From positions 1 through 35,249 of the IMG/VR virus record IMGVR_UViG_3300032156_000045: a stretch of 35,249 nucleotides of DNA. One strand, 5' to 3'. The notes beneath the pieces are model-generated. The model had not been told where the DNA came from, searched no databases, and saw only the letters and a program-made list of their open reading frames with translations. Positions 2,183-31,500 of the stretch are shown here, one piece after another. Every line of letters starts with the position of its first letter. Position 1 is the stretch's first letter. The stretch is from a virus. A program made the position numbers and the translations under genes.

Positions 2183-3940
2183 TTAACATATTCCGCTACC
2201 ATAGTATATTGATATTCCATATCTAGTATCAACGCCAGTAAAAGTATATGCATTATTATTAGTTGTCCAACAATGGCCACCACTTATTATTATATGTTCT
2301 CCCATTGAAACCCCAGTAAGAGTAACGATAACATTATATGACGCTCCTAATTGTAATGTCGATCCAGCGCTCTGTTGTCCTGCTGTTATTGGATAATATG
2401 GCGTGACGTCATTAACCAATACTCCATTTATCGCAACAGCACTAATACCGTACACGCCATTACTATTGGTAATCATTACTGATTGTCCAATTTTTGACGG
2501 CGTTGGAGACGGCGTTTTTGACCGCGTTGGAGACGGTGAACTCGGTGGACTCTCACCACTACAAGCTACGTTACATGTGTCATATGGGCCCCTACTTATT
2601 GTTAATGGCGAACCTCCAATAGGCTGTATAGTATTAACTAATAATACTTTTGCTCCACCATCGGTTGTATAATAATATTTCCCAATTGTTAGAAAAACTG
2701 TTGTTTGTATGTGAGCTGAACCAATAGTACCAGTGCAATTTCCGCCAGAACATCCATAAAATGTAACGCCATATCCCCAAATTGTGGACGAAGCACTTGG
2801 CGTTCTAGATGGCGTTAGTGTCATAGACGGTGTTTTAGATGGCGTTTTAGACATCGATAATGACGGCGTTTTTGATGGCGTCATTGACGGCGTTTTTGAT
2901 GGCGTCATTGACGGCGTTTTTGATGGCGTCATTGACGGCGTTTTTGATGGCGTCATTGACGGCGTTTTTGATGGCGTTTTTGATATCGTTATTGATGGTG
3001 TTGCTGATGGCGTTATTAATGGCGTTATTGATGGTGTTTTTGATGGTGTTACTAACGCTGGCGTTTTTGATGGTGTCGAAGACCGCGTTATAGATGGTGT
3101 TGGAGATTCCGTCATATATGGCGTTGAAAACGGCGTTTTAGATGGCGTTTTTGATATCGACATTGACGGAGTTTTTGATGGCGTCGGAGATGGCGTCATC
3201 AATGCTGGTGTTTTTGATGGTGTTGGCGTTACTGATATCGTTGAAGATTTTGTTATGGCTGGCGTTGCAGATGGCGTTTGAGACATCGTTTTTGATATCG
3301 ACACTGACGGCATTATTGATGGCGTTGGAGACGGCGTCGGATTAATTGAATTTAATACTATCAAAAATCGTCGATTAGGTGATAAAAATGTATTACTAAC
3401 ATTAATTGTTTTACCTGTATTCGGAAGAATTGTGTCTGAAAAAACAAATGGCGAAACAGAATCACTATCTCTAATTATCAATATATAGGATAATGCGTTA
3501 ACAATCTCGTTGTTAAAAATTTCAACATTTGTTGTATCTTCAACCGTGGTTCCTGTGTTTATATGATAATATATAGATTCGCCCTGATCTGGTAATGGAA
3601 TAAATGAAATTGGTCCAAATGATGCTGATGTAATATCAATACTTCCAGATTCTGGAAAAAACTCATTGGATATTTTCACATCTGAATATAAATGTTCCAT
3701 TGTTGATCCTGAACACCCAATACCACGATCGCCAGTATTTTCCAGCATAATTCCATACGATTCATCATTTATTGTAATTGTATGACCTGGAAATATTAAA
3801 CTTGATAATGGTACATTGGATTCAATTAGAAAAGGAACTGGCTCTGGATATCCATTAAGATCGTATCTATATTCGTAAATATTGAAACTACCGGCATCTG
3901 TGGTTGACGGAATTACTATTATTGTTACTTGATCTGCCAT
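2183..3940 (-). CDS. Modular adhesin-like protein with long Thr-Pro-Ser linker, 585 aa
   Basis: Four parts can be seen. Residues 1-200 form an unrecognised beta-rich domain. Residues 201-386 are a Thr/Pro/Ser array with units TPSK, TPSM, SISKTPS and KTPALVTPS. Residues 388-462 form a small Cys-containing domain (GVTFYGCSGGNC...YDTCNVAC). After a second short linker (463-483), residues 484-585 form a Gly-rich beta domain ending YYGSGIC. The Cys domain matches the C-terminal domain of the neighbouring 245-residue protein (FYNCS...LTVDKFYRLDD...YDNAC), so the two genes share a distal module behind unrelated N-termini. There is no signal peptide. The 46-base gap upstream carries TATTTATA. It is most likely a tail adhesin or decoration protein; no family is recognised for the N-terminus. 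Confidence 0.7.
   Translation of the reverse strand: MADQVTIIVIPSTTDAGSFNIYEYRYDLNGYPEPVPFLIESNVPLSSLIFPGHTITINDESYGIMLENTGDRGIGCSGSTMEHLYSDVKISNEFFPESGSIDITSASFGPISFIPLPDQGESIYYHINTGTTVEDTTNVEIFNNEIVNALSYILIIRDSDSVSPFVFSDTILPNTGKTINVSNTFLSPNRRFLIVLNSINPTPSPTPSIMPSVSISKTMSQTPSATPAITKSSTISVTPTPSKTPALMTPSPTPSKTPSMSISKTPSKTPFSTPYMTESPTPSITRSSTPSKTPALVTPSKTPSITPLITPSATPSITISKTPSKTPSMTPSKTPSMTPSKTPSMTPSKTPSMTPSKTPSLSMSKTPSKTPSMTLTPSRTPSASSTIWGYGVTFYGCSGGNCTGTIGSAHIQTTVFLTIGKYYYTTDGGAKVLLVNTIQPIGGSPLTISRGPYDTCNVACSGESPPSSPSPTRSKTPSPTPSKIGQSVMITNSNGVYGISAVAINGVLVNDVTPYYPITAGQQSAGSTLQLGASYNVIVTLTGVSMGEHIIISGGHCWTTNNNAYTFTGVDTRYGISIYYGSGIC
2492..2554 (-). repeat. Short second Thr-Pro-Ser linker in the 585-residue protein
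   Basis: Encodes residues 463-483 (SPPSSPSPTRSKTPSPTPSK). It separates the Cys-containing domain from the C-terminal Gly-rich domain. It uses the same words as the long linker, showing that the spacer is placed between individual modules and not only after the N-terminus. Confidence 0.75.
2783..3340 (-). repeat. Thr-Pro-Ser coding repeat array of the 585-residue protein
   Basis: About 558 bases encode residues 201-386. On the plus strand the array reads as variations on GATGGCGTTTTT. On the coding strand Thr-Pro is mostly ACGCCA or ACACCA, with Lys and Ser between. The unit is 4 residues (12 bases), with interspersed SISKTPS heptads. KTPALxTPS occurs twice in this array and again in the 1273- and 535-residue genes. 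Confidence 0.9.
2862..2981 (-). repeat. Four perfect tandem 24-base copies plus a diverged fifth
   Basis: Within the linker array, a 24-base unit starting GACGGCGTTTTTGATGGCGT on the plus strand repeats without change at 2862-2885, 2886-2909, 2910-2933 and 2934-2957. A fifth copy at 2958-2981 has two changes at its end. It encodes SKTPSMTP repeated. Perfect identity including third positions implies recent expansion by slippage or unequal recombination, unlike the rest of the array, which has diverged. Confidence 0.92.
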
Positions 3941-3986
3941 TATTTCCTAATATATTGTTTAATATAAATATCCGTTTTTAAAAATG
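3941..3986 (-). promoter_or_regulatory. Intergenic gap with TATTTATA element
   Basis: This 46-base A/T-rich gap lies upstream of the 585-residue gene. The minus strand reads TATTTATA at 3970-3963, 22 bases before the ATG at 3940, then an A/T-rich leader with TTAGGAAATA just before the start. The AGGA lies 7 bases before the ATG and is the nearest thing to a Shine-Dalgarno in the window. The gap may hold a promoter; it is recognised by recurrence only. Confidence 0.25.
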
Positions 3987-4724
3987 TTATGATGCACATG
4001 CGTTATCATAGCTATCATATCCAATTACAGGCTCAGTAAGAACAATAGAGTCTGGCCCTGTGATATAAACATCATATATATATACAATATCGGCGCTTGG
4101 GTCATCCAATCTATAGAATTTATCCACCGTTAAATTAACGGATGTGTTTATTCCGGCAAATCCTATTGGATATTCTATTGAACAATTATAAAATGCCGCC
4201 TTATAATAAAAAACTGTTTGCGATGTTGATGGCGATATTGTTGGAGTTATCGTTGGTGTTGCTGATATTGATAACGATGGCGATGGCGTTGCTGATATCG
4301 ATAATGACGGCGATATCGTTGCTGATATTGATAATGACGGCGTTACGGTTGGCGTTACTGATGGCGTTGCTGATATTGATAACGATGGCGTTACGGTAGG
4401 CGTTATTGACATACTAGGTGTTGGGGGCGCGCCTAATCTATATGCTATTTCATCATTTATTAGAATATTTTTAACCATCCATCTTTCTGGATATTCGATT
4501 TCTTGCCCCATAATCCAATATACTTGACCATAAACGAAATCGCCAATTAAATCTATTGTTGTTGTTCCTCCCGTAAATATTTGACCATAATCCGTATATC
4601 CACTATTAAGTGGATATGGATTAATACCAGGTGGGAATCCTACCACATCTGTTCCGGCTTTATAATATATTCTAAAGTCGTTTGGTATTGTAATTTCGGT
4701 TATTTTTATTCTAATATTGCCCAT
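3987..4724 (-). CDS. Small modular adhesin-like protein with Thr-Pro-Ser linker, 245 aa
   Basis: This is the shortest linker protein. Residues 1-99 form a beta-rich N-terminal domain with no recognised family. Residues 100-170 are a linker of PTVTPSLSISATPS units. Residues 171-245 form a Cys-containing C-terminal domain. That domain aligns by eye with residues 388-462 of the downstream 585-residue protein: FY-CS, then V-LT--K-Y, a DD/DGG-A-V turn, and Y-D-C/Y-D-NAC at the end. The two proteins differ upstream of the linker. There is no signal peptide or membrane segment. The gene sits 46 bases before the 585-residue gene and 22 bases after the lipoprotein gene. It is probably a tail adhesin or minor structural protein. 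Confidence 0.65.
   Translation of the reverse strand: MGNIRIKITEITIPNDFRIYYKAGTDVVGFPPGINPYPLNSGYTDYGQIFTGGTTTIDLIGDFVYGQVYWIMGQEIEYPERWMVKNILINDEIAYRLGAPPTPSMSITPTVTPSLSISATPSVTPTVTPSLSISATISPSLSISATPSPSLSISATPTITPTISPSTSQTVFYYKAAFYNCSIEYPIGFAGINTSVNLTVDKFYRLDDPSADIVYIYDVYITGPDSIVLTEPVIGYDSYDNACAS
4215..4427 (-). repeat. Thr-Pro-Ser coding repeat array of the 245-residue protein
   Basis: Encodes residues 100-170, dominated by TPSLSISAT units about 7-8 residues long. On the plus strand this appears as repeats of GATATTGATAAcGATGGCGTT with scattered substitutions. The same 21-base block occurs in the 1273-, 535-, 396- and 585-residue genes. Confidence 0.88.
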
Positions 4725-4746: not shown

Positions 4747-6681
4747 TTATGGTATATATTCATAAACTCCAATTTCTGGCGGATTATTTACGTTTGATCC
4801 GTCATAATCTTTTGATAATCCAACATCTATTCCATTATTTATTGCAGGGGAGCCTGGTTGTAAATGAAAATTAGTAGAAGATACAAATAATGGATTATCA
4901 GTATAATTATTCCGCGTGGTATTGTTTGTTGGCGACATTCCATTAAGATAAATTATATCATTATTTGCGTCGCCATAAAAAATATTATTTTCTATAGATA
5001 AATTGTCTATTGTTGTACCGCCTTCTCCATTACCATAGATTGAGCAATAATCAAAATTATAAATGATGTTATTTTGTATAGTAACATTGGTACTATGATC
5101 CGAATCTGGAAGCTCAATCCCCCACCTTGTGGTTGCTGATGAAGATCCAGTAAAAACATTATTCAAAATTTGTATATTATCAATAACTCCTGTTAATATA
5201 TGATCACAAACATCACAACCCCAATTAATTCCCCATCCTTTTGAATTTAACCCATTCGCCCCGATATTCTCAAAAATATTATATGATACCCTTATATTTT
5301 TTGTACTTACATTAGGATATTCAGTATTAACCATAAAACCTTGTGCAACATTTTTGATATGATTATATTCAATGATTACATCGTTAGTAATATGTTCTAG
5401 CAAAATTCCGCGAATATTTTCTCCAGCCAAAAGAGTTGTCTGCCCAATATTATTATTATGTATCCACACACAATACTCACTAGAACCCTTACCTAATGCT
5501 CGACAAATATCTATTGATCCTATTATATCATTATTATATATTTCCACTCCGCCTAGTGCGTTCCACATCTCAATAGCAAAATCCCAATGAGTTGATCCTG
5601 CAGATGGCCATCCATGAAGATACTTATGATGAATTGTGTTTTTATAGATTTTTAAATTTTTATTGAATCCCTCAACCATTCCAATACAATTTCCGTTTGC
5701 TCCATTTGATTTATTTTCAGTCATTGTGTTATTATAAACTAACATTCCATCGGTTCCAGTAATATGAAGAGCATCTCCTTTTGAATCTTCATTAAAATAT
5801 CCCGCACAATTAGTAACAATGTTATTATGAAATTCACATCCAGTGGCCCATCTATCATCTGGCGGCTCGCCATTATAGTATTTAATCCCAAACATTTTGA
5901 AATTAACAAATGTACAATTATATATTTTTACATTTCCTCTAAATCTTATTGTAATGGCGCCATATGCTGTTTGATTATTTCCATCCATTTTTATGCCTGA
6001 AATATGCTGATTACCATTTGTGTTTTCCGACCCGCTCTCTAAATGTATAGTAAATCCTGTTCCAGACATAATAGACTTAATTATTGATGTTGGGCCATCT
6101 CCCTCGATGCTGACGCCAGGCGCTAATCGGCATTGATCTTTTTCTGCTATTGTGCCAGGATTTATATGAATAATATTTCCTGATTTTGTTGCTTTTGTAC
6201 AAGCATATGAAAGTGTTGCAAAAGGGGCATTTATTGATCCGTTATTAATATTACTTCCAGTGTGAGATACATAATATGTTCCTGTAACACCTGACGATGT
6301 AGTGGTAAAAGAAACTTGAGATCCGTAACTTATTCCAATAGAATTTATTGCGTATGCTCTAATATAATATGTGGTACTAGAGGTTAAATTCACTAACGGA
6401 ATTATAAAAATACCAGTACCACCGTCATCACTAATTTTAGTACCCATTAAGACCGTTGGATTAGAAACGGTGCTCCAACATATACCTCTATCTATAATTG
6501 CTTTGTCTCCGCTTTTTACCACACAACCTCCACTAATAGCAGATGTAGATGTAATGAATGTTGCTTCTGTTGTTGTTACTTCTGGAACAGTTGGTTGATC
6601 AGGAGTGATAACTTTTTTTTCACAATAAAATAATTGTGATGCTATAAATAAAAAAATAAAAAAAATAGTTTTTGATTTCAT
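4747..6681 (-). CDS. Predicted lipoprotein with FN3-like and right-handed beta-helix domains, 644 aa
   Basis: The N-terminus MKSKTIFFIFLFIASQLFYC is a charged start, a hydrophobic core and a Cys at residue 20 followed by EKK, which looks like a type II (lipoprotein) signal peptide. The lipobox LFYC is atypical at the -1 position. Residues 33-128 match the FN3-like domain common in Bacteroidetes surface proteins (ITSTSAISGG, RGICWS, TTYYIRAYAINS, GSQVSFTT). Residues 135-644 form a parallel beta-helix of the pectate-lyase/DUF1565 type, rich in NNxI and YNNxI rungs. This helix is paralogous to residues 1-528 of the 1273-residue protein immediately upstream, with long identical DNA runs. A secreted lipoprotein is unusual inside a tail gene cluster. 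It could be displayed on the infected cell, or be a host-derived fusion. The role is unknown; glycan binding or cleavage is plausible for the helix. Confidence 0.75.
   Translation of the reverse strand: MKSKTIFFIFLFIASQLFYCEKKVITPDQPTVPEVTTTEATFITSTSAISGGCVVKSGDKAIIDRGICWSTVSNPTVLMGTKISDDGGTGIFIIPLVNLTSSTTYYIRAYAINSIGISYGSQVSFTTTSSGVTGTYYVSHTGSNINNGSINAPFATLSYACTKATKSGNIIHINPGTIAEKDQCRLAPGVSIEGDGPTSIIKSIMSGTGFTIHLESGSENTNGNQHISGIKMDGNNQTAYGAITIRFRGNVKIYNCTFVNFKMFGIKYYNGEPPDDRWATGCEFHNNIVTNCAGYFNEDSKGDALHITGTDGMLVYNNTMTENKSNGANGNCIGMVEGFNKNLKIYKNTIHHKYLHGWPSAGSTHWDFAIEMWNALGGVEIYNNDIIGSIDICRALGKGSSEYCVWIHNNNIGQTTLLAGENIRGILLEHITNDVIIEYNHIKNVAQGFMVNTEYPNVSTKNIRVSYNIFENIGANGLNSKGWGINWGCDVCDHILTGVIDNIQILNNVFTGSSSATTRWGIELPDSDHSTNVTIQNNIIYNFDYCSIYGNGEGGTTIDNLSIENNIFYGDANNDIIYLNGMSPTNNTTRNNYTDNPLFVSSTNFHLQPGSPAINNGIDVGLSKDYDGSNVNNPPEIGVYEYIP
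5447..5478 (-). repeat. 32-base identical segment shared with the adjacent beta-helix gene
   Basis: These 32 bases are identical to 9679-9710 in the 1273-residue gene. Both encode the beta-helix rung around EYCVWIHNNNIGQ. Further long matches occur nearby, for example the segment around 5160-5190 versus 9368-9400. Identity at synonymous positions implies a recent duplication or gene conversion between the two neighbouring genes. Confidence 0.85.
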
Positions 6682-6704: not shown

Positions 6705-9700
6705 TTATGCATATATTCGTGCTCCTACCTGCCATAATCCATTTTGATCTTGTGTTGCTGGCGATACGCCCACAGTCCATACAGCTGAAGTTGATAATCC
6801 AGTTTGAAATTCGGATCCAACACTACTTGTTCCATAATTTAATCTTGCCGTTGGAACAAAATTGGTTGTATCAATGAAATTTGGATTTATGTCTATGCGA
6901 GAATGTGTATCATATCCTAATGCCTGCCACTGGGCGAAGTTATATGATGTCGTAGATCCATCATTTGCGGCAATTTGAAATATAGGCGCTCCAGACGAAC
7001 AATAGAAAATATTATAATCACTCACAAATCCAGTTCGAGAATTATTGTAAATTTTTATCATTACTACGCTCGATGTGGCATAAAAAATATTATTATATAT
7101 CTTAGTGTTGGTAGATCCTAGTGATGGAGTATAATCTCCATTTGGCGATATCAATATAAAGTACATACTTTGGCCATCGCTGCTATAAAATGTATTGTTA
7201 ATAAATTTTATACCATTTATTCCTTTAACTCTTCCCGCAAAATGGCCATTTTTAACGATATTATATGACGCCCCTCCATAGGTATTTGTCATATAGTTGC
7301 CTCCACTATCGCCAGATTTATATATGATACCATATGGCGCTGTTTGTAAATAATTGTATTTTACTGCTGCATTTATATTATAACCAACAATAACTCCATG
7401 AGTAATAATACCACCATATGATCCGCCAGCCCATACAATCTTATTTCCAGATACAACCTCTCCATCCATCCAATTGCTTGAGGAGCCAGGACCATCATCT
7501 CCTAATTGAACAACATATCCGCCTGTATTTATGGAACTAACATAATTGTTTCTAAATATAAAATTAGATGGCCCGCTAATATCTTTTGTGTACTTATAAC
7601 ATGCATATCCGGTATCAGATGTGGGATTATTATCTACCACATTCATTCCTTCAACTATATCATATCCTCCCGATAACGGCGATGTTGACGGCGTTCTGGA
7701 TATTGATAAGGATGGTGTTTTCGATGGCGTTTTCGATGGCGTTATTGATGTCGTTTTGGATATTGATAAGGATGGTGTTACTGTTGACGTTATTGATGGG
7801 GTTCTAGATATTGATAAGGACGGTGTTTTAGATGGCGTTATCGATGGCGTTTTTGATGGCGTTAGAAATGGCGTTTTCGATGGCGTTATGGATATTGATC
7901 TCGATGGCGTTTTTGATGGTGTTCTAGACGGCGTTACCAATGCTGGCGTTTTGGTCGGCGTTGGCGTTGGTGATTTAGATATCGACAATGATGGTGTTAC
8001 TGTTGATGTTATTGATGGCGTTAAAAATGGCGTTACCGATGGGGTTCCAGATATTGATAATGATGGAGTTACTGTTGGCGTTATAGACACTGTTTCAGAT
8101 ATTGATAATGACGGCGTAACTGTTAGCGTTTTAGTTGGCGTAATTGTTGGCGATTCTGCTGGCTCCATCGACGACGTTGTTGTTGGTGTTACTGTCATCG
8201 TTGGAGTTAGTGATGGTATTATTACTCCCGCTGGCAATTCTAATGTGCAATTTGCACTATCAACAAAAATTAATGTATAATTTCCCAATGTGATACCTGT
8301 AAAACAATATGTACCTGGTATGTAATGTATATTATCAGGCGCGACTGAAGGAGAAATTGAAACTGTTATTGGGTATTCTCCATAGCTTAATGTGTAACAT
8401 ATTGTAATGGTGCCAGCAGATTTAGTTTCGCTTGGCGTTATTGATGGCGTTTTTGATGGCGATAAAAATGGTGTTTTTGACGGCGTTATAGATACTGATA
8501 ATGTTGGCGTTATTGATGGCGTTATTGATGGCGTTTTAGATATCGATAATGATGGGGTTATAGATGGAGTTATAGATGGGGTTATAGATGGCGATAAAAA
8601 TGGCGTTACTGATGGCGTTGCAGATATTGATAGAGATGGCGTTTTTGATGGCGTTTTGGATATCGATAGAGATGGAGTTACTGTCGACGTTGATGATGGC
8701 GTTATTGATTGCGATATTGGCGGTATTATTGGTGGTGTTGTTGATGGCGTTCTGGATATCGATAACGATGGCGTTTTCGATGGTGTTAACGACGGTGATA
8801 AATGCGGTGTTGTTGACGGCGTTCTAGATATTGATCGAGATGGCGTTTTCGATGGAGTTATAGTTGGCGTTTTAGATATCGATAATGACGGCGTTTTTGT
8901 TGGCGTTTTTGTTGGCGTTAGCGATGGTGATGCGGCCGCACCGACATATTCATATACACCAATTTCAGGAGGATTACCTATAACATTGCCGTCCATATCC
9001 AGCGTTCCTGTAAGTCCAACATCAATGCCAGCATCATAAGCTGGAGAAAAAATAGAACTCAAACGATAATTAGGCTCAGTTTCGGATAAAGAAATAAATA
9101 ATGGATTTGTTTTTATTGGTGTAACTGGCGTATAATGTGTTGGAGTTATGCCATTAAATCGAACATTATCACTATAACCATTGCTATAGAATATATTATG
9201 ATCAATAGCAAGAGTATCTATTGTTACCCCACCTAAGGACCCTTGAGAGGCATATAAGGGAGCATAATCGAAATTATAAACTATATTATTCCTTACTATT
9301 ACATTAGTTGCCTTACCTGAATCTGGAAGTTCGATCCCCCACATTGTGGTTGCCGCTGAAGCGGCACTAAAAACATTATTCAAAATTTGTATATTATTAA
9401 TAGTGGTCGTTTCAACATGATCACAAACATCACAACCCCAATAAAATCCCCATCCCCTAGAACTTAGATTTGATGTCCCTATATTGTGAAAAATATTATA
9501 TGATATTCTTACATTTGTTACATTTACAGGGGGTTTATCCGGCGGCCCATATTGAGTATTAACATGAAAAGCTTGCGCGACATTTTTCACGAAATTGTGC
9601 TCAATAATTACGTCATTAACGCTAGATTCAAGTAAGAATCCATAAGTATATTCTGATGACATAAGAGCTGGCTGTCCGATATTATTATTATGTATCCACA

Positions 9701-10526
9701 CACAATACTCGCCAGAACCTTTGCCCCATGCTCGAGAAACATCTATTGCTCCTATTATATCATTATTATATATTTCATTTCCTTCATACCAGTTCCAAAT
9801 TTCTATTGCAAACGACCATGTTATTCGAGGATCAGTAATAGGAAATATTTTTGTAAATGTATTATGATGAATCTTAACATTTTTTAGATGGCCTTCAACG
9901 CCATCAATAATATTACCATTTAATCCGTCTGCTCTATTTATCGTTATAGTATTGCCAGATATTACTAATCCATCTTGCCCTCCAATATTTAAAGTTCCTT
10001 TAGAGTCACCGCCAGAATATGTTCCGAAATATCTGCTGCAATTAGTCATTACGCAATCAATAATTTTGTTATTTGTGGCAAAAGTTGCTGGCGGAGTTGA
10101 GACATCATTTCCATTTAGCATATAAATTGCATACCAATCAAAGTTAACAAAAGTACAATTAGATATTCTTACATTTCCTCGATTACGTACTCCTATTGCT
10201 GAATATCCATTATAGCTGTTACCATCCATTTTTATATTGGAGATATGTTGATTGCCATTAAAATTTAAAGAACCGCTATACAAATATATCGTATGACCCT
10301 TAGTACGATCAACAGTAGAACTTATTACAGAACTATCACCATCACCCTCAATACTTACGCCTGGCGCTAACTCAGTTTGTATTGATTCTGATATTATGCC
10401 AATGATATGAATTATATCACCAACGGTTGTAACATGAACAGCCGCATAATGAAGAGTTTTCCATGGCGCATCAAATGAACCATCTCCCAACGAATCACTT
10501 CCATATTCGCTTACATATCTCGTCAT
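6705..10526 (-). CDS. Multi-domain tail adhesin with two beta-helices and an SprB-like domain, 1273 aa
   Basis: Five segments are visible. Residues 1-528 form a right-handed beta-helix that opens with VSEYGSDSLGDGSFDAPWKT, the 'GSDxxxGSxxxPWKTL' entry of DUF1565/pectate-lyase-like proteins. Residues 533-701 are a Thr-Pro-Ser linker. Residues 705-765 form an SprB-like repeat (YGEYPITVSI...GNYTLIFVDSANC). Residues 770-950 are a second linker. Residues 955-1273 form a second, different beta-helix (FINNTFYS, IYNNIFYA, DYNIFYCSS) ending in NGLWQVGARIYA. The first helix is paralogous to the lipoprotein downstream but lacks its signal peptide and FN3 domain. Phage beta-helix proteins are often receptor-binding or capsule-degrading tail spikes. 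No catalytic residues can be assigned by eye. The start ATG at 10526 is preceded by a conserved 20-base element. Confidence 0.75.
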   Translation of the reverse strand: MTRYVSEYGSDSLGDGSFDAPWKTLHYAAVHVTTVGDIIHIIGIISESIQTELAPGVSIEGDGDSSVISSTVDRTKGHTIYLYSGSLNFNGNQHISNIKMDGNSYNGYSAIGVRNRGNVRISNCTFVNFDWYAIYMLNGNDVSTPPATFATNNKIIDCVMTNCSRYFGTYSGGDSKGTLNIGGQDGLVISGNTITINRADGLNGNIIDGVEGHLKNVKIHHNTFTKIFPITDPRITWSFAIEIWNWYEGNEIYNNDIIGAIDVSRAWGKGSGEYCVWIHNNNIGQPALMSSEYTYGFLLESSVNDVIIEHNFVKNVAQAFHVNTQYGPPDKPPVNVTNVRISYNIFHNIGTSNLSSRGWGFYWGCDVCDHVETTTINNIQILNNVFSAASAATTMWGIELPDSGKATNVIVRNNIVYNFDYAPLYASQGSLGGVTIDTLAIDHNIFYSNGYSDNVRFNGITPTHYTPVTPIKTNPLFISLSETEPNYRLSSIFSPAYDAGIDVGLTGTLDMDGNVIGNPPEIGVYEYVGAAASPSLTPTKTPTKTPSLSISKTPTITPSKTPSRSISRTPSTTPHLSPSLTPSKTPSLSISRTPSTTPPIIPPISQSITPSSTSTVTPSLSISKTPSKTPSLSISATPSVTPFLSPSITPSITPSITPSLSISKTPSITPSITPTLSVSITPSKTPFLSPSKTPSITPSETKSAGTITICYTLSYGEYPITVSISPSVAPDNIHYIPGTYCFTGITLGNYTLIFVDSANCTLELPAGVIIPSLTPTMTVTPTTTSSMEPAESPTITPTKTLTVTPSLSISETVSITPTVTPSLSISGTPSVTPFLTPSITSTVTPSLSISKSPTPTPTKTPALVTPSRTPSKTPSRSISITPSKTPFLTPSKTPSITPSKTPSLSISRTPSITSTVTPSLSISKTTSITPSKTPSKTPSLSISRTPSTSPLSGGYDIVEGMNVVDNNPTSDTGYACYKYTKDISGPSNFIFRNNYVSSINTGGYVVQLGDDGPGSSSNWMDGEVVSGNKIVWAGGSYGGIITHGVIVGYNINAAVKYNYLQTAPYGIIYKSGDSGGNYMTNTYGGASYNIVKNGHFAGRVKGINGIKFINNTFYSSDGQSMYFILISPNGDYTPSLGSTNTKIYNNIFYATSSVVMIKIYNNSRTGFVSDYNIFYCSSGAPIFQIAANDGSTTSYNFAQWQALGYDTHSRIDINPNFIDTTNFVPTARLNYGTSSVGSEFQTGLSTSAVWTVGVSPATQDQNGLWQVGARIYA
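7677..8219 (-). repeat. Second Thr-Pro-Ser array of the 1273-residue protein
   Basis: Encodes residues 770-950, between the SprB-like domain and the C-terminal beta-helix. It is built from TPSLSIS, SKTPSK and KTPALVTPSRTPS units. The KTPALVTPS word recurs in the 535- and 585-residue genes. Confidence 0.9.
8424..8930 (-). repeat. First Thr-Pro-Ser array of the 1273-residue protein
   Basis: Encodes residues 533-701, between the N-terminal beta-helix and the SprB-like domain. TPSLSISKTPS and SISRTPST units dominate. On the plus strand it is a dense run of GATGGCGTT words. Confidence 0.9.
9679..9710 (-). repeat. 32-base identical segment shared with the lipoprotein gene
   Basis: This is the partner of 5447-5478 and lies in the N-terminal beta-helix of the 1273-residue protein. 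The two copies are about 4.2 kb apart in direct orientation, so recombination between them could delete or swap the intervening linkers and domains. Confidence 0.85.
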
Positions 10527-14791: not shown

Positions 14792-14804
14792 TTGTTATTT
14801 ATTA

Positions 14805-16412: not shown

Positions 16413-16426
16413 TTTTTATTTTAATA

Positions 16427-16446
16427 TGTTTCTTATCTATAATTAT
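16427..16446 (-). promoter_or_regulatory. Conserved 20-base upstream element (copy 2)
   Basis: The minus strand reads ATAATTATAGATAAGAAACA, matching 10543-10562 at 19 of 20 positions, and lies 14 bases upstream of the ATG at 16412. Its 5' end overlaps the stop codon of the 2167-residue gene. It is a candidate promoter or processing/leader element for the adhesin genes. Confidence 0.4.
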
Positions 16447-22946: not shown

Positions 22947-23866
22947 TATGCTGTAATCGTATCAAAATTTAATGATTCGTCAATATCAGTTTTTTTCTCT
23001 CTAATTTCGTATAATGTTTCGTTATATTGATCTTTAATTTCATATAAATTGAATTGTTTGTAAATATGACGAGTACCATCTGGATCCTGACTATAGATCG
23101 TATAGATACCACTAGATATAGCTTTACTTTGATCTCCATAAAGAGCATATGCCAATGTTGAAGCGTCATGTTCAACCATTTCAATTTCAATTGTAACTGG
23201 ATTAAAATATGTGTTAGTTAAAATAATTGTTTGTTCAGGCTGACCGATATATGGAACAGTATTTGGCCTTGTTGACGGCGCAGAACTTGGGGTTATTGTT
23301 AAAAACATCAAATTTGTTGCGCTATCAGAATATCTATATCTAATCGCTTTCTGACTAGTATTTGTTAAATTTGTAGTGATTGGCTCGCAATAAAAATTAG
23401 ATGTAATAACTCTATAAAAATTTGGTATTTTTTTACTGTCGGTTGGGTTTATATACTCAATACGATATCCAACCAATCCTTGTGGAGAAAATTTATTTCT
23501 ATCAGTAGAAACCACATTTGATAAATCTATCACTAGTCCTCTAACTGATGGCAAAGACGCTAACACGCCACAGTCAGTTATCTTCGTTCTAATCTGTTTT
23601 GGCCTGAGGTGAAGGGTGTATATCCCCAAGTCAGAGAAGTTCCCTGATTCGAGTTTTAAATTATATAATCCACCCAAAATCTCAACATTTGCTACTCCGC
23701 CAGTCTGATCATTATGATAAACGGGTGTTAAAATTGACGCAGCATCCAATGTTTTCAATGTTACCTCTGAACTGGCGTTTCTATCAACCACATAATGATA
23801 TAATATTTCAACATCTTCTGGCGACACATCCGCGGGTCTAATTATCCCATAGCTACCTATACTCAC
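22946..23866 (-). CDS. Conserved-looking tail/baseplate component of unknown function, 306 aa
   Basis: A mixed beta protein without signal peptide, membrane segment or linker. It begins [20 protein letters not shown] and has a motif-like [15 protein letters not shown] around residue 80. The C-terminus is helical and charged ([20 protein letters not shown]). The start is GTG at 23866, because no in-frame ATG lies nearby; an AAAGAG sequence just upstream may help initiation. The start overlaps the end of the endonuclease gene by 14 bases, and the stop overlaps the next ATG by one. Position between baseplate genes suggests a baseplate part, perhaps where T4 encodes gp8-like wedge proteins, but no sequence match is recognised. 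Confidence 0.6.
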
Positions 23867-24641
23867 TCTTTATAATTTTATTATTTTTTTTATCAACAAC
23901 TAAAACATCAACGGGTTTTATGTTTTCGTTCACCCATTTTATTTTTTTCAATTGAGTTGTATCAATTTTTTTAGTCCATCTACTCGGCTTCTTTCCAATT
24001 AGTACATCATATGTATAATCCGATTTTATTTCTATATATGATTTATCGTCTAAAAAATCGGGATAATATACTCCAAATGGCGTGATTACCGATTCCGAAT
24101 TTTGTGGTAATTTTTTTCTTTCTTTCATAAGTTTTTCGATATAAAATTTTTCATATGTTCCATCACATATTAAACCATTAATTATATATCTTTTACATAC
24201 TCCACCAGTTTGTTTCCTTTTACCACTTTGAACTAGTTTTTGCTGGCCCAATTTTATGTTGAGACTAGCCTTTTCACTTCTTTTTTTCCCTGTTTGTCTT
24301 AAAGAAATTGATTCGCCTTTAGTTCTTCCAAAATCGCTATTATATATAAATTTCTCAACAAAATGCTCATTTAATTTTAATGCTTCAGATATATAGATTG
24401 GAGACTTGTGATCTATAATATACAATTCTTTAATTTTGTTTTTTGTTTCTTCATTTATTTCAATTTTTATTCCATTACTATATCCTGCTCGTAAAATGCC
24501 CATTTCTTTAAGTAATCTTCGAATTGGTAATTTACTTATTCCAAACTTTTTACCTATTTTTAAACATGAAAGTCTATTTTCATTATAGTCAAAAACTATT
24601 GAAAATATTTCTTTTTCTGTAAATTGTATTTTTTTCCTCAT
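23853..24641 (-). CDS. Free-standing homing-type endonuclease, PD-(D/E)XK fold, 262 aa
   Basis: The C-terminal domain carries the PD-(D/E)XK signature: GVYYPDFL around Asp195, then YIEIKS with Glu204 and Lys206, and an upstream helix with Glu164 (CDGTYEKFYIEKL). The arrangement '(C)DGtyE...L...G.YYPDF...YIEIK' is typical of a group of phage homing endonucleases related to Vsr-like nucleases. Residues about 24-50 (SCLKIGKKFGISKLPIRRLLKEMGIL) look like a helix-turn-helix, and residues 70-105 may form a second one, giving DNA recognition. The protein is Lys-rich, unlike its acidic/neutral neighbours. It lies between two structural genes in the same orientation, overlapping the next by 14 bases and ending in TAG. 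It is expected to spread itself by cutting alleles lacking the gene. Confidence 0.78.
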   Translation of the reverse strand: MRKKIQFTEKEIFSIVFDYNENRLSCLKIGKKFGISKLPIRRLLKEMGILRAGYSNGIKIEINEETKNKIKELYIIDHKSPIYISEALKLNEHFVEKFIYNSDFGRTKGESISLRQTGKKRSEKASLNIKLGQQKLVQSGKRKQTGGVCKRYIINGLICDGTYEKFYIEKLMKERKKLPQNSESVITPFGVYYPDFLDDKSYIEIKSDYTYDVLIGKKPSRWTKKIDTTQLKKIKWVNENIKPVDVLVVDKKNNKIIKSEYR

Positions 24642-24657: not shown

Positions 24658-25638
24658 TTATTGTTTTTTTACTTTGAAATATCCGCTTCCATATATGTCT
24701 AATTCACCAGTGCTATCGATTTCGCCTAATCGTAAGTTCCTTTCCATCACTCCCTGTTTGCCTCTTTCAATAAAAATATCTGAATAGATCTGAGGTTCAT
24801 CGAGAAACCCAATTAAATGTTCATTTCTTGTTATCATTCCATTATATAATTCTTCAACATAATATGATAGCGTATTTCCTGTTATATATGTGTAATTTTC
24901 AGGAAAGTCCATATAATATAAATCGCCATATACAGTATTGCCAGAAATTGTATATCCAGTATAGTATACTATCTCGCCATCAATTACTTTTGAAAGATAA
25001 TCTATATCACTATATGTGTTTGAACTTCCATAATTTCTTTTTTCATCAATTCTACTTTTTCCTATTGCTAAAAATGAAATTGTTACGCCAGTTACAGGAT
25101 CGGTATTACCTGTTAGTGTTGCATAATCCTGTAAATAATCTTGCGTTACATCTGTTATTACCGGATTAGAATATGGAATTGTAATTCCAGACAACGTACC
25201 AAGAGGATTTGGATATGTTATTCCCGAAAACGGGATATATATCTGTCTTTTTAATTTTTGAGTTTGCCACAGGGAATTAACAGTAATTTCTATATTATAT
25301 AATCCGCTGGCACCTGTATATGTATATAAAGCGTTTTTCAAATCGGTATCGTAAACCGTTGTCATATCTAATTCTGTATCACTTCCTTCACCCCAAGAAA
25401 TTGTAAAGACTGAATCAATAAGCGTTCTTAATTTATTTGTATTTATAGTATTATAAATTATAATTGTGTTTCCACTTCCACTATATGTAAAATTACAATA
25501 TTGCTCAATTTGCTCGATATCTCCATCAAATCCAACCATAATACCCATTTCATCTACCGAACTTTCTAAATAAATTGGTATTTGATATGTGATACCACTT
25601 GTTGACCCTGATAATATTTCATATCTATCTTTTCTCAT
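24658..25638 (-). CDS. Tail/baseplate structural protein of unknown function, 326 aa
   Basis: A beta-rich, Tyr/Thr/Gly-rich protein with many 'SGxTY' and 'TGxT' turns, as in its neighbours. The C-terminus IYSDIFIERGKQGVMERNLR followed by LGEIDSTGELDIYGSGYFKV looks like a conserved helical end seen in structural genes of large phages, possibly a docking segment; this is from memory of the pattern and not certain. The ATG at 25638 overlaps the stop of the preceding linker-tailed gene by four bases (ATGA), so the pair is probably translationally coupled. There is no signal, membrane segment or linker. The endonuclease gene follows after 16 bases. Confidence 0.6.
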   Translation of the reverse strand: MRKDRYEILSGSTSGITYQIPIYLESSVDEMGIMVGFDGDIEQIEQYCNFTYSGSGNTIIIYNTINTNKLRTLIDSVFTISWGEGSDTELDMTTVYDTDLKNALYTYTGASGLYNIEITVNSLWQTQKLKRQIYIPFSGITYPNPLGTLSGITIPYSNPVITDVTQDYLQDYATLTGNTDPVTGVTISFLAIGKSRIDEKRNYGSSNTYSDIDYLSKVIDGEIVYYTGYTISGNTVYGDLYYMDFPENYTYITGNTLSYYVEELYNGMITRNEHLIGFLDEPQIYSDIFIERGKQGVMERNLRLGEIDSTGELDIYGSGYFKVKKQ

Positions 25639-26825
25639 ACTGATGGACTTGGCGTTACTGATGGTGTTTCTGACGGTGTTTCCGTTGGCGTTTCTGTTGG
25701 CGTTATTGTTGGTGTTTCTGTTGGTGTTTCTGTTGGCGTTTCTGATATTGATAGAGATGGCGTTACCGTCGGTGTTTCTGTTGGCGTTACTGTTGGCGTT
25801 TCTGATATTGATAGAGATGGCGTTTTTGACGGTGTTACTGTTCTAGATGCCGTTTTTGATGGCGTTGCCGTTCTAGATACCGTTTTTGATGGCGTTACCG
25901 ATGGCGTCATTGTCGGCGTCTTTGTTGTGGATCTCGTTACTGTTGGGGTTATTGATGTTGTTGCAGATATTGATAACGATGGCGTTACCGATGGCGTTAC
26001 CGATGGCGTTGGGGGTATAATTGAGCTTGCCGAATCCGATGCTGCATAAAATTTAATTGGGCCTGTGCTACATCCAACTCTAATTTCTGTTGCCCCCGAA
26101 TAAATCATATATGAATAATCTGATCTATCAATAACCATCTTATAATACACATCCGTTTCCTCATTTATTGCATCAATATATCCCTTATCGTCATTTGTGA
26201 AACTTATGATTTTCCCATCGATTGTATTGAAAAATCTTGCGGCCATATAAAATGTATTGCCCGAAATTAATGTTCCGTTTAATACCGTGTTATCTTGAAA
26301 CCAAAATAAATACATATTTTCTTTATTTCTAAAATTCGATCCCATAAAAATAGGAACATATATGTATTCATTGTTTGGCGTGTATTTAACTTTCTCTCCC
26401 AATGCGATAGGTAAATGTTTGGTAAACACCAATTTTCTATTTGAACTATTTGGATTTTGTCCTTCTGGAATTTTATAAAATTCTAGCCTGAAAAAACTAT
26501 CGTTATCCTGTCTTAATACTTTACTGTTTTTTTCTGGCGTTAGTCCAATATATTGATAATTTAATCCGCCAGCATGCGTTGAGGGAATTTCATTATTGTA
26601 AAAATAGAAATAAAACCAAATATCTGATTGTTCAATGTTTTGCAATCCAACGCATGATTTATGTATATATCTAACCGTTTCAAAATTTACACTCGGATTA
26701 ATAATAGATTTTAAAGTGTCTTGTTCGAATTCTTGAAATGATTCTTCCCATCCCAAATCTGTTTTGAAATCGGTTTCGTTATTTAAAATAATATTTTGAT
26801 TTAAATCGTTTTTTAAAAATTTCAT
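25635..26825 (-). CDS. Structural protein ending in a naked Thr-Pro tail, 396 aa
   Basis: Residues 1-268 form a mixed domain rich in Phe/Tyr/Asn (DIWFYFYFYNNEIPS, YIYVPIFMGSNF, MYLFWFQDNT). Residues 270-396 are a Thr-Pro-Ser tail that runs to the stop codon; every other linker in the window leads into another domain. The tail changes charge: Lys/Arg separate the Thr-Pro pairs in its middle (TKTPTMTP, SRTATPSKT), and Glu replaces them in the last ~55 residues (SETPTETPTETP). The ATG at 26825 overlaps the previous stop by four bases (ATGA); a GTG two codons earlier is possible. The stop overlaps the next ATG. It may be a fibre or linker component, or a gene that has lost its distal domain. Confidence 0.65.
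   Translation of the reverse strand: MKFLKNDLNQNIILNNETDFKTDLGWEESFQEFEQDTLKSIINPSVNFETVRYIHKSCVGLQNIEQSDIWFYFYFYNNEIPSTHAGGLNYQYIGLTPEKNSKVLRQDNDSFFRLEFYKIPEGQNPNSSNRKLVFTKHLPIALGEKVKYTPNNEYIYVPIFMGSNFRNKENMYLFWFQDNTVLNGTLISGNTFYMAARFFNTIDGKIISFTNDDKGYIDAINEETDVYYKMVIDRSDYSYMIYSGATEIRVGCSTGPIKFYAASDSASSIIPPTPSVTPSVTPSLSISATTSITPTVTRSTTKTPTMTPSVTPSKTVSRTATPSKTASRTVTPSKTPSLSISETPTVTPTETPTVTPSLSISETPTETPTETPTITPTETPTETPSETPSVTPSPSV
25638..26018 (-). repeat. Terminal Thr-Pro-Ser array of the 396-residue protein
   Basis: Encodes the last ~127 residues. It contains two copies of TPSLSISET and several TETPT units. The plus strand shows GGCGTTTCTGTTGGCGTTTC-type words, a variant of the GATGGCGTT motif of the other arrays. 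Confidence 0.9.
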
Positions 26826-28564
26826 TGACACTTGGTTGGATCTTTTATGTAAAAACTGGTAATTTCATCTTTTTTGTTTGTATATACTTGTTCATTCCTC
26901 AAATAGAAATTAATATCTTTATGAATATAATGTATATCATTTAAATATGGGTAATCTGTACCATATCCATCTGTATCAATATATCCATCATCATATAAAT
27001 CCCTCCATCTCCACAATTTTTCATTAGAAAAATATATCGCGTTTTCAGGCAAGTTGTCTACCTTATCGGTACTTGATGTTTCAGTATATGGAGATAACTC
27101 TCTCATTTTATATCTATAATGAGGTTGATAATATAATCCAACGGGATTGTCAGCAGTCACACCAGAATATGTGCTACTTGTAGTTTGCCCATGATTAAAA
27201 ACATTTATATTTGTTATTATTTTATGGAACGCCTCTGAAATTATTCTTTCTTTCATTTCCTTGGAATTATATTCAACAAATGCCCCATATAAACTATCGC
27301 CCACATTCATTGTTCTTCCTGATGTGAAAGTAATTCCGCTTATAATGAATGTATCGCCCGATAATGCCATTTCATTTGATGTTGTGCCACTAAAATGTTC
27401 ATCAATCCATAAATCATGAAAATGAAATGAATATCCAACTTTTGGCGGATAATCAAACATTCCATTGCCATTTCTGAAAATTATAGTTGCATATAAATCA
27501 GTCGGAGTATAACCTAAATTATTCGTTATTCCTGTTAATATGAATGGTTCTTTAAAATCAAACAATACGGCTTCCATTCTATTTTTCTCGGCAATATAAT
27601 CATTAACTCCCGCGCTGTTTTCAAATAACAATTTTTTCTCATCTTGCCATATCGGAGATTCAAATCCAACTTTATCTATAACATAATCATCTGGTGATGT
27701 TAATAATTTATGCTGATGAACATAATATTGTGATTTAGATTTATCAATATCATTAATGTCAGTACATCTTTTACCCACAACTAACGCATTTAAAGTCCCA
27801 CCACTTAATTGAGATTTGGATATTTTAATAACATGATTTTCAGAATTATATATCTCATTGCCAATAGAATTAACGTAATACGGAACTGAATTTATTATAA
27901 CATATTCCCCTTGACTAATTCCGTGATGAACAGGACTGGTAAGCGTATATTCGGTTGATCCTGTTTGAACTCTGAATGGTATTCCATCCCCGCTAACAAA
28001 AGTTAATAAATTGTCTCCTTCAGTTTTTGTCGCTCCCGTTAAAGTATATTTCATTGGAAATGTTTCGGTATGAGCATATATATAGCTTAAATAAAGATTC
28101 CAATTAAAATATGGGGCATTAAAAGCAGTAATTATTTGATGTGTCGTTGATCCAGATGTGGTAAGTGTAAATCCAGAAAACGTATCTAAAGAATCTACCG
28201 AGATTTGCTCGGTAGTTTCACGATAAATGTCATTTCTTAAAAATGCGAATTCATCATATGGTAAATAACCACGAAAATCACCATCAGTTCCATTGCCCAA
28301 TATATATAATCTCTCTTTTATATAATCATAATCACTCATTCCAAAATATAAATTTCTAAAAATCATTTTCATTTTTCCGTAAAATTTATATCTCTTACAA
28401 TTGGATCTTTCATTTGCAAACTGTTCTGATAAGTTTAAAACAATATCCCTATCATCTGTTCTTAACAATGACTTTTCTTCTTCAAATCCAACACGTATCT
28501 GACTATCTACATCAGGCGCGTTTTCATATCTTAATTTAGGTAATATTATTTGTTTCTTTTCCAT
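26822..28564 (-). CDS. Putative baseplate structural protein, 580 aa
   Basis: It starts MEKKQIILPKLRYENAPDVD. An in-frame ATG 36 bases earlier would overlap the preceding gene by 35 bases; the chosen ATG at 28564 lies one base after that gene's stop codon, the usual spacing here. The first ~110 residues are charged and helical (DRDIVLNLSEQFANERSNCK, SDYDYIKERLYILGNG). The rest is beta-rich with Tyr/Gly/Thr turns and a C-terminus rich in aromatic and acidic residues. There is no signal peptide, linker or membrane segment. No family is recognised. Position after the gp6-like and 1572-residue genes suggests a baseplate wedge component. The stop overlaps the next start by four bases. Confidence 0.65.
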   Translation of the reverse strand: MEKKQIILPKLRYENAPDVDSQIRVGFEEEKSLLRTDDRDIVLNLSEQFANERSNCKRYKFYGKMKMIFRNLYFGMSDYDYIKERLYILGNGTDGDFRGYLPYDEFAFLRNDIYRETTEQISVDSLDTFSGFTLTTSGSTTHQIITAFNAPYFNWNLYLSYIYAHTETFPMKYTLTGATKTEGDNLLTFVSGDGIPFRVQTGSTEYTLTSPVHHGISQGEYVIINSVPYYVNSIGNEIYNSENHVIKISKSQLSGGTLNALVVGKRCTDINDIDKSKSQYYVHQHKLLTSPDDYVIDKVGFESPIWQDEKKLLFENSAGVNDYIAEKNRMEAVLFDFKEPFILTGITNNLGYTPTDLYATIIFRNGNGMFDYPPKVGYSFHFHDLWIDEHFSGTTSNEMALSGDTFIISGITFTSGRTMNVGDSLYGAFVEYNSKEMKERIISEAFHKIITNINVFNHGQTTSSTYSGVTADNPVGLYYQPHYRYKMRELSPYTETSSTDKVDNLPENAIYFSNEKLWRWRDLYDDGYIDTDGYGTDYPYLNDIHYIHKDINFYLRNEQVYTNKKDEITSFYIKDPTKCQ

Positions 28565-28565
28565 A

Positions 28566-31500
28566 TTAGCATTCAAAATTATTAAGTTCCACATAAACAT
28601 CTACTGAAGTATTCATTACTATGGGATCATCATATCCCATATGCAACATACCACCATAAGGCGGCACTGGTCGACAATGATCCACGCCATTACTATCTCT
28701 AATATGTAGATAAGATGGTATTGATCCTGATCCAAGAATTGTAATTAACATAGTATATGATCCAGTTCCGTATGGGGATTGTGTGGATCCATTACCACCC
28801 GCAACGTATGGAAGCCCAGGTAAACTAAGTGATGTGGACACAACTGACACATCTTCAATTCTATATAAGTTATCGTATGATTGATTCGAGGTGTATATTG
28901 TTGGATAACCCAAGAACGCTGATGGCGTTGGCGTTGGTGTTCTAGTTGGCGACGGTGATAATCCTGGCGTTAAACTAATGCTTGGGGTTACGCTTGGGCT
29001 TAGAGACGGCGTTGGTATTGGCGTTATCTCTGTTAATGGAATTGGGGTTGGCGTCGTAAATGCGCCTTTAGGTCCAAAATATTTTATCAATAAATCTAAC
29101 GCCGTTTTTTCTGGCCTTAATCCAAAATAAAATAAAAATGGAGTCGATAAAACCTGTTTAGCGTTATTTAATTCTCCATAATAATTTAATGCTGTTTGTG
29201 GTATAAACATCTCTCTATATCCATCTATATATGGATCTGGCTGTTCTACCCAAGTTTTATTAACCACAACATATATAATGCCGCCTTGCGGATCTTTAGT
29301 TGTGCCGCTTGTAGGTGGAACATATAGCCATAAGTCACCTTCAATATATTCTAATGCACCATTCTCGGATATGTTTGGAGTCTCATAACTAATTACTTCA
29401 AATCTTTCTAACATATCTTCTGTATCCCCAGTAAAAGCAAAAGTATTATGTGTAATCGTCATTGGCTTTAACAAATATTCTTCTTCGCCATCTGGCATTA
29501 AATAATTTGTACTAGTTGCCGTTACTCCACTTATTGAAAATAATCTTTGAAATTTCATAGACGCAACGGCTGATTTATCCCATGTTTGACTATCCGAATA
29601 ATCACCATATCTACCAAATCCTTCTTGTTGTTTATTCCATAAATAAAATGGCACCACTTGAGAATAATCGCCTAACCTATTATTTAAACATGACCTTATA
29701 AGCGCTCCGTTAGGATCTAATTTTAAATCTATTGATATGGGTGCGAATTCATTAGAACTATTTTTAAAATATATTCCAAATCGAGGATCTTCTGGATCCA
29801 TCAATTCTCCGTTATACATATTATAATGCGGTCCATCCAAATCAAACGCTTCGATACCAGCTTCACAATTGATAGACATTAACTGCGTAATATCTCCATC
29901 CAAAACCTTTATTCTAGTTTTAATTTGGGTAACGGGTTGTCCAGTAAAAAAATCATCAACGTCAAATTTAGAACTGGTAATATCCATTCTATAATTTATT
30001 GCATATTCAATAATATTTGCGGCATCTTGATATGATGTTGGTCCAATATCTCTAATTACAGAACATGCTGGATCTACCATTGGATCGTAACATATTTCGG
30101 ATAAAAACTCATCCCTAACTCCAACATCATAAAATGTTGTTGGATGTAGAATTTCCACAGTTTCATCTTTATAAAATTGGCCAATAAATCCTGACGACAA
30201 ATTATATGGCGTACATCGATAATAAAAATTCTTGTCTAGTATGTTATAAAACACAAGTTCTCTTGGATATCTTGTGCGTCGTTGATTTAAATCATATTCT
30301 CCTTCATTATCCCATCGTACCCTTTTATCGAATTTAAAAAAGTATAATATTCCATTCAACCAATTATCGATAAATGAGTAATTAAGAACGCCGCCACAGA
30401 AAAATAAACCAACCCTTTTTCGTCTATACCATTCCTGTATTGCTATAAAGTTGTTACTCTTACCTCTTATTACTGGAATTATAGTAAATATGCCATCTCT
30501 AAACTCGGAATATCCAGATTTGGTTTTTCTATCGTATATTGCTCTTCCAATTTTACTAAAATTTTTTCTATACGGCATTCTTAAAACGCCTACTGGTTTA
30601 GCAATAATTGTGGCCAATAAATAAATATATGGATATGCCGGCTGTGTTTTTGATTCCATAAATCCAGGACAATCTGGAGTATATGTTGCTGGTAATGTTT
30701 TTGGCGGAGTAACAGGTTGATATGAATTTTCATATGTCTGTCCTGTTGCCCATAGATATGCGTATACTATGCCTTCATTATATGTTTTATCATATTTGTC
30801 ACATCCTTCTTCAATATTATATACTGTCGAACCCGTTACTTGGGCCTCTTTTAAGATTCCTCTGTCATAAATTCTTAAAACAATATAAGAATCAGTATCA
30901 ATAATTGGATTTTCAGTATTATTGACTCCATAATCTATGCCTGTTAACTCATTAAATTTTTCGAGACTGAAAACTATTTCTTTATTTGCTCCATTATTGG
31001 TAATTATAATATCGTCAAATTGAATATCCTCTAAAAAGAATACCATAAATTCACTTACATTAGTGGTTTGTGGATCTCCCTCTGGTGTAATCCATCCATA
31101 TCCTTCAGCGACATATCTCGGCCCGCTGCCTTCGCCCTCAATAACTGTGGCATAAGTGTGTAAATCATCCAATTGCGGACTTGCGGATGAGTATGTTATA
31201 ATAGTTGATCCCGAGCACAAACCCTCCTCATCCCTTGCATATTCACCATCAAATATATTGTTTGTCGTCCCACCGCTAAAAAAACTTGGATCAGTTGATA
31301 AATTACGCATATCGGCGCTACTATTACTAACAAGACGAACGCCCATCGTCAATGTAATCCACTCATAATCAACTTCTATAGGCTCTATTTTAAATTTAAC
31401 TTCAGCAACTCTACAATATGTATCTGCAAATGATGTGTCCGATATTACTGCATCATCCGTTGTTGTGCATTCCTCACAATCAGGATAAATTGTTAGCGGG

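Follow-up and report, generated by a model that had tools for sequence, protein, structure and literature searches.

The virus contig IMGVR_UViG_3300032156_000045 of IMG/VR (positions 1 to 35,249; the window is this whole 35-kb stretch) encodes phage baseplate and tail proteins, several of which carry long tracts rich in threonine, proline and serine. These tracts, here called linkers or stalks, raise the question whether they only keep domains apart or whether they mark the places at which a phage gains, loses and exchanges the domains behind them. Fifteen genes were called in the window; all of them lie on the minus strand and are read in the order g15, g14, g13, g12, g11, g10 (an HNH-like insert), g9, g8, g7 to g2 and g1; an earlier note on this DNA had counted fourteen. 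Its statement that seven genes carry the same kind of Thr-Pro-Ser linker was borne out, as such linkers were called in g2, g3, g5, g7, g8, g12 and g14, whose products have 585, 245, 1273, 535, 2167, 398 and 1572 amino acids, respectively; the g12 product, previously given 396 residues, has 398 when read from its GTG start. We favour, with a probability of about 0.75, the explanation that the stalks join conserved virion-building anchors to interchangeable distal domains, and that these modules are gained, lost, duplicated and exchanged at junctions in or next to the stalks. This explanation is carried by the anatomy of the linkers, the turnover of the modules, the sharing of linker words within genomes and the horizontal transfer of modules, all of which were observed.

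Conserved anchors and changing distal modules

Relatives of the window were found by scans with the g8 anchor, g9 and g1, which yielded four close relatives (G001 to G004, whose backbone genes mostly show 60-90% identity) and, on contigs of up to 321 kb, 160 loci. All relatives are metagenome contigs, and 89 non-redundant loci were left for comparison after the removal of near-duplicates. Linkers were masked in the locus comparison; an unmasked version gave spurious low-complexity matches. Linkers are present in 72 of the 76 loci of at least 12 kb, with a median of three genes per locus, and the seven linker genes of the window are the maximum, which is equalled by G002 and L157.

Turnover was measured in gene pairs from different genomes by setting the region ahead of the first linker against the domains that follow, whereby domains without a BLASTP match at 1e-3 were scored as unrelated; the last 100 residues of linkerless genes from the same phages served as the control. 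Among pairs whose anchors are 60-100% identical, 43 of 272 pairs of linker genes have unrelated distal domains, compared to 2 of 2839 pairs of length-matched linkerless genes. Sorted by anchor identity (60-75, 75-85, 85-95 and 95-100%), the swaps amount to 34/184, 2/47, 6/26 and 1/15 pairs in linker genes and to 1/1776, 1/628, 0/326 and 0/109 in the controls. The swaps at an anchor identity of at least 60% are spread over seven anchor families, if three single g8 labels are counted with the g8 family. The earlier note had proposed to look in related genomes for swapped distal domains. Behind conserved N-termini, the swap, gain and loss of distal domains turned out to be common in linker genes and almost absent in linkerless ones; the opposite pattern, in which every N-terminus keeps its distal domain and the arrays vary only in length, was looked for in the relatives and not seen.

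The point at which the linkers start is defined by orthologues that lack them, since most relatives have g14, g13 and g12 proteins that lack a linker and stop with the anchor. The g14 anchor (residues 1-1409, 29058-33284, minus strand like all features below) is a baseplate-region protein adjoining g15 (33338-35170), a gp6-like baseplate wedge (PF04865 and phrog_6, E=7.8e-22). Linkerless g14 orthologues stop at the same residue, four or five residues after ...FGPKGAF; in L036 the protein ends with ...FGPKGAFPSQE, where the window continues with ...FGPKGAFTTPTPIPL into a linker of 57 residues (28887-29057) and distal module 96 (28569-28886). Likewise, the g12 orthologue of G002 stops at ...IRFYST, the end of the window's g12 anchor (residues 1-264, 26040-26831), whereas the window reads on as ...IKFYAASDSASSIIPPTPSV into a linker (25638-26039). 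For 23 linker open reading frames (ORFs) with full-length linkerless orthologues, the gap between the end of anchor homology and the first linker residue is 0-11 residues in 21 cases and 27-28 residues in two, and in 17 of the 23 the orthologue ends no more than 10 residues from the end of homology. Since linkerless orthologues end where the linkers start, linker and module can be regarded as an appendage on a complete virion protein.

What is appended differs even within the closest relatives. Behind g14, module 96 is found in the window (G000) and G001, module 72 in G003, another module in G002 and a module that resembles BACON by eye in G004. The g13 protein has no appendage in G000 and G001, and carries module 70 in G002 and module 106 in G003. 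In the case of g12, the linker is bare in the window, where it forms the C-terminus, and is followed by module 98 in G001 and G003 and by a BACON-like module in G004; G002 has nothing at this place. Module 98 is also present in g2 of the window (67% identical to the G001 copy and 47% to that of G003) and, distantly, in g3; a search of viral contigs for this module returned only the three relatives already known. Module 106 occurs on g2 in L094 as well, which probably represents the same phage as G003, because 127 bases at the start of the L094 contig are identical to the end of the G003 contig. Up to 31 of 48 recurring distal families sit on at least two anchors, an upper figure, as anchor clusters may be over-split.

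Single cases illustrate these changes at higher resolution. The g8 anchors of L021 and L026 are 95% identical and end in unrelated distal domains; the same holds for a pair of anchors in L107 and L109 (88% identical), and the L109 module is 77% identical at the amino acid level to a module of L098, whose anchor is unrelated. L113, whose genome is about 93% identical in DNA to that of L109, has the L109 anchor, but a further domain of roughly 100 residues is placed immediately in front of the linker. L113 and L143 have a module in common (84% DNA identity over 237 nt) on unrelated anchors, and their g1 proteins share 30% amino acid identity. The proteins of L113/L143 and L098/L109 are mosaics, in which one domain is highly similar and the rest unrelated. 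Within L107, a C-terminal duplication links two genes over 1069 nt (80.8%). Judged from these comparisons, distal modules have been exchanged between anchors and between phages, and the exchange is concentrated in the linker genes of the baseplate and tail region.

The breakpoints lie in or beside the linkers: several module matches start 17-90 nt inside a linker, others stop at its border, and the homology between L107 and L109 breaks off exactly where the linker begins. Among segments replaced between genomes that are at least 82% identical, 16 of 26 have a linker edge, compared to 5.1 expected by random placement. A count over all pairs down to 70% identity (left edge near a linker in 78 of 565, 124 expected) was set aside as uninformative, as divergent stretches of the backbone dominate it.

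The remaining linker genes of the window are built in the same manner. The g8 anchor (residues 1-1348, 18903-22946) is followed by two linkers (18522-18902 and 18360-18482) and module 35 (16446-18359), which is also present in G002, G003 and L019 and is replaced by other modules in L014, L015, L021, L026, L084 and L089. In g7, an N-terminal domain (module 43, 16158-16412), a linker containing TPSLSIS and KTPALVTPS (15654-16157) and module 67 (14808-15653) follow each other. The g5 protein starts with a host-type beta-helix (8931-10526) and continues with linker 1 (8418-8930), an internal module 43 (8235-8417) that is N-terminal in the G002 and G003 relatives, linker 2 with KTPALVTPS (7671-8234) and module 97 (6708-7670). 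A short anchor in g3 (residues 1-99, 4428-4724) bears a linker (4221-4427) and a distant copy of module 98 (3990-4220; 29% identity, E=2e-8). Finally, the g2 anchor (residues 1-197, 3350-3940) is joined by a linker of 189 residues (2783-3349) to module 98 (2558-2782) and by a second linker (2480-2557) to module 70 (2186-2479), which is found on g13 and g5 in G002 and on g8 in L019. Linker prolines are mostly spaced four residues apart (118 of 220), and 12-base tandem periods were detected by Tandem Repeats Finder.

The earlier note had placed the linkers exactly at module borders, with mostly unrelated N-termini upstream and recurring modules downstream. The borders and the downstream recurrence were recovered, the latter for module 98 in g2 and g3 and, distantly, for modules 70 (g2) and 96 (g14), but the g12 linker ends its protein. 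The view of the N-termini has to be relaxed, as recurring parts are also found upstream: g4 (4747-6681) and the N-domain of g5 are beta-helices that are 56% identical, and the N-domain of g7 reappears inside g5.

Some further features of these loci were seen in passing. The g10 gene (23853-24641, between g9 and g11) encodes an HNH-like endonuclease (phrog_8446, E=1e-4), is absent at that place in G001 to G004 and is probably a recent homing insertion. A TnpB-like ORF, named by eye (MIKSYKYRIEPT...), lies between g15 and g14 in L010 (8418-9581, minus strand; G003) and is absent in the other four genomes. In L006 (16855-18330; G002), g11 is broken after about 54 residues by a Thr-Pro-Ser linker, a BACON-like module and a stop, and the remainder forms a separate ORF from about residue 70. 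L084 contains a module array, in which a 90-residue module (family 53) occurs five times with short linkers in between, spread over two adjacent genes (10918-17391 and 17398-18614). Long antisense ORFs on the plus strand of the window (2784-3281, 7621-8280, 8407-9039 and 15625-16179) cover linkers and are most likely by-products of repeat composition.

Linker words and the route of exchange

The linkers had been described as being built from the words TPSK, TPSLSIS and KTPALVTPS. All three are present, but none of them occurs in all seven genes: TPSLSIS or PSLSIS is found in g3, g5, g7 and g12 (23 copies of PSLSIS), KTPALVTPS in g2, g5 and g7, and TPSK in g2, g5, g12 and, once, in g8; the g14 linker has none of the three and follows only a looser TPS/TPT grammar. 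A sharing of DNA words in the same orientation had also been claimed. Indeed, GATGGCGTT occurs 46 times in the window (45 plus, 1 minus; 0.18 expected) and GATATTGATAATGA five times, always on the plus strand (0.00 expected); however, the sharing mostly follows from the peptides. On the coding strand the two words read ACG-CCA-TC (T-P-S) and TCA-TTA-TCA-ATA-TC (S-L-S-I-S), threonine before proline is encoded by ACG in 68% of cases within linkers and in 47% outside, and 18 21-mers are common to different window genes compared to 5.3 +/- 4.9 under synonymous codon shuffling. Because of the shuffling and the codon result, the DNA words are best seen as mostly peptide words in context-preferred codons, and as proof of DNA-level exchange they were dropped as main evidence.

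The peptide words are more telling when they are compared between genomes. Outside the window, PSLSIS was found in only two genes, one in L019 and one in L014, and TPALVTPS, which is present in three window genes, in no other genome of the relatives set; the g5 and g7 copies of KTPALVTPS, together with the preceding residue, agree at 28 of 30 nt. In some relatives the linkers are written in another dialect, for example TPTNTPTNT. Over the 89 loci, 1028 linker words of eight residues are common to at least two genes of one genome, compared to 348 (maximum 557) when genes are dealt to genomes at random, and 181 words are both private to one genome and present in at least two of its genes, compared to 17 (maximum 71) in the same control. 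Therefore, linkers within one genome exchange or copy sequence.

These results are consistent with a mechanism in which the Thr-Pro-Ser tracts would act as extended stalks between baseplate or tail anchors and distal domains that probably touch the host surface. Stalk and module form a C-terminal appendage (N-terminal in g5 only) on proteins that are complete without it. In the course of evolution, modules are gained and lost, are copied to further anchors within one phage and pass from one phage to another. By slippage and intragenomic recombination, the stalks may swap and expand sequence among the genes of one genome, so that every phage would acquire a stalk dialect of its own together with short homologies in the DNA. 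Recombination inside the stalks, either UvsX-type or illegitimate, could then serve as the route. As a stalk should tolerate any in-frame length, almost any junction inside it would give a working protein.

Exchange without reverse transcriptase or invertase, as the earlier note had supposed, agrees with what was found in 15 relatives of up to 321 kb, five of which have 288-321 kb. No RVT_1 domain (reverse transcriptase) was detected in these records, which may be fragments and in which template and variable repeats were not searched; neither was a resolvase or invertase (PF00239) or an integrase (PF00589), with the same reservation as to fragments and without a search for inverted sites. A UvsX-like recombinase (phrog_97) is encoded by the relatives G003 and G012, and weak RecA-family matches were obtained in 11 of the 15. 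Together with the gp6-like wedge g15, the UvsX-like recombinase places these phages among those with T4-like contractile tails. The most economical reading is that general recombination, either homologous over short repeats or illegitimate, is the route of exchange. It is plausible that stalk DNA raises the exchange rate, and the genome-private words and the matches starting inside linkers favour the idea that homology or slippage in the linker DNA may drive crossovers. A stronger proposal, that the stalk DNA is an evolved recombination platform in which slippage and inter-gene recombination maintain genome-private short homologies and UvsX-type exchange during co-infection moves any module to any anchor, seems rather doubtful to us; if true, many host-contact proteins could vary independently without a dedicated recombinase.

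Alternative explanations

The strongest competitor of exchangeable appendages is a purely mechanical role, according to which illegitimate recombination strikes anywhere, only junctions in or beside a tolerant spacer survive selection and the linker DNA remains passive. To this possibility we give a little under even odds. It would account for the explanation of most DNA word sharing by peptide words and codon context, for the L107/L109 homology that ends at the very start of the linker and for the G003 copy of module 98, which is joined by a GTSG repeat, so that TPS is not obligatory. However, genome-private words in several genes (PSLSIS in four and TPALVTPS in three window genes; 181 versus 17 overall) show that the linker sequence itself moves between genes, and some recent module matches begin 17-90 nt within the linker. 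Another reading, which is unlikely, treats the tracts as mucin-like glycosylation or surface-shielding domains with a function of their own and incidental attachments. The high content of threonine, serine and proline and the g12 linker of the window, to which nothing is attached, would fit; nearly all other linkers, however, connect two folded domains, and turnover is concentrated in the attached domains. Moreover, a known Bacteroidota O-glycosylation motif, D-(S/T)-hydrophobic, requires an aspartate, a residue that the linkers lack.

Two further explanations deny the exchange itself. That distal modules merely diverge by point changes until homology is lost is very improbable, even though short modules do outpace their anchors (module 96 is 46% and g14 72% identical between G000 and G001): the modules can still be recognised, with up to 84% DNA identity, where they sit on other anchors and in distant phages, presence and absence differ precisely at the anchor end, and modules of one anchor do occur on other anchors in the sample. 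Assembly chimeras at repetitive linkers might be suspected in a set of relatives that consists of metagenome contigs throughout, but they are hardly credible. In G000 to G004 the genes flanking the swapped modules keep their order, whereas a false join of two linkers would lose genes; 12 contigs carry the L098 gene and three the L143 gene without a single difference; and the modules differ from copies elsewhere (55-80% amino acid identity), hence they are not copies made by an assembler. In addition, the longest inter-gene repeat in the window has 26 nt, which is below usual assembly k-mers.

Several observations nevertheless weigh against exchange through the stalks. The same module is kept in most pairs (229 of 272 at 60-100% anchor identity), few swaps fall between 75 and 85% anchor identity, and the swap counts come from genome pairs that are not independent and include modules, such as 96 and 70, that may be remote homologues although scored as different. 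At the DNA level, the excess of sharing over synonymous shuffling is modest, and the longest run common to the linkers of two window genes is the 26 nt mentioned above. When linker composition was compared within the own genome and between orthologous linkers, the difference was significant but small (0.45 vs 0.385, p=0.0017), and the GTSG attachment of module 98 in G003 bypasses the Thr-Pro-Ser stalk altogether.

Probable host and comparison with known systems

The distal modules likely bind the host surface, as suggested by their position, a SprB repeat in module 67 of g7 (PF13573, E=4.8e-8), LamG domains in the neighbouring g6, the beta-helices of g4 and g5 and a weak BACON match. The latter was obtained with the g12 module of G004 (PF13004, E=0.0099), whose 16.3 bits are below the curated cut-off of 25; the G002 g11 and G004 g14 modules gave no hit in Pfam, so that none of these three modules reached the cut-off. 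The AF2 model of module 98 is small, mostly beta and confident (mean predicted local distance difference test score, pLDDT, 89.7); its fold search returned no match in PDB and one in BFVD (E=1e-4), inside an 823-residue protein of an uncultured phage. The model of module 70 (pLDDT 60.6) was too poor for a fold search. Cellular relatives of the beta-helix were found in 20 Bacteroidota loci (metagenome-assembled genomes) among 84,980 GTDB genomes, and their proteins carry no such linkers. The g4 gene combines a lipoprotein-like signal (LFYC) with a beta-helix; it may be a surface gene acquired from Bacteroidota, and a tail module may also have been derived from it. The g14 anchor had no match in cultured phages, and a profile of g1 found no solved relative. 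The nearest cultured phages are mostly those of Flavobacterium, with Flavobacterium immuto (26%) as the nearest. Taken together, the SprB repeat, the beta-helix relatives restricted to Bacteroidota and the Flavobacterium phages suggest that the window probably belongs to an uncultured large phage infecting Bacteroidota.

Studies of host change in large phages usually deal with a single tail fibre, whereas the phages compared here carry exchangeable domains on up to seven virion proteins through one kind of stalk. Junctions that are defined to a few residues show where natural virion proteins tolerate an added domain, and the module families recovered from environmental phages can serve as a catalogue. 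A further question becomes accessible to experiment, namely whether repeat stalks promote recombination or are simply permissive for it.

That phage tail and receptor-binding proteins shuffle their domains is established, and recently exchanged domains were found in mosaic proteins including those that meet the host (Smug et al. 2023, PMC10684548). The mosaics described here are of the same kind; however, the text of that survey makes no mention of linkers, whereas exchange in the window tracks a repetitive stalk in up to seven virion genes. Among the carriers of the stalk are baseplate proteins whose counterparts in most relatives lack it. BACON repeats occur on tail proteins of crAss-like and other gut phages, to which they were in part transferred horizontally as single domains (de Jonge et al. 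2019, PMC6949934). Both systems place a Bacteroidota carbohydrate-binding-type domain on tail proteins, but the BACON-like domain is here one of many module kinds and stands singly on the Thr-Pro-Ser stalks of g11, g12 and possibly g14. Similarly, Ig-like domains are present on diverse classes of virion proteins in many phages (PMC7602432). In both cases one kind of surface domain is found on several functional classes, whereas the stalks described here carry many unrelated module families, and the model of module 98 has no PDB match.

Repetitive segments are also known from modular tail fibres: collagen-like repeats occur in side tail fibres of prophages, and the combinations of domains were attributed to recombination between prophages (PMC3368898). 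Those repeats are Gly-X-Y trimers in side tail fibre genes, whereas the Thr-Pro-Ser stalk of the window is found in seven virion genes. In the gp38 adhesins of T-even phages, short conserved glycine-rich motifs reportedly alternate with variable host-binding segments and are said, in work ascribed to Trojet et al. in 2011, to help recombination. There, the motifs are part of the folded tip of a single adhesin, whereas the stalks of the window are long and lie between domains. Six of the seven linker proteins match phrog_15511, a family name without function, at E<=6e-6 (g14 at 0.006); the match comes mainly from the linker, is compositional and does not define anchors or modules. A search of open PMC papers for Thr/Pro repeats in phage tails yielded nothing comparable. 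As far as we could find, no stalk system that extends over this many virion proteins has been described before, while the shuffling of domains in phage tails itself is known. What the window adds is a repeat stalk that extends across several baseplate and tail genes, is appended at exact protein ends and is written in genome-private dialects.

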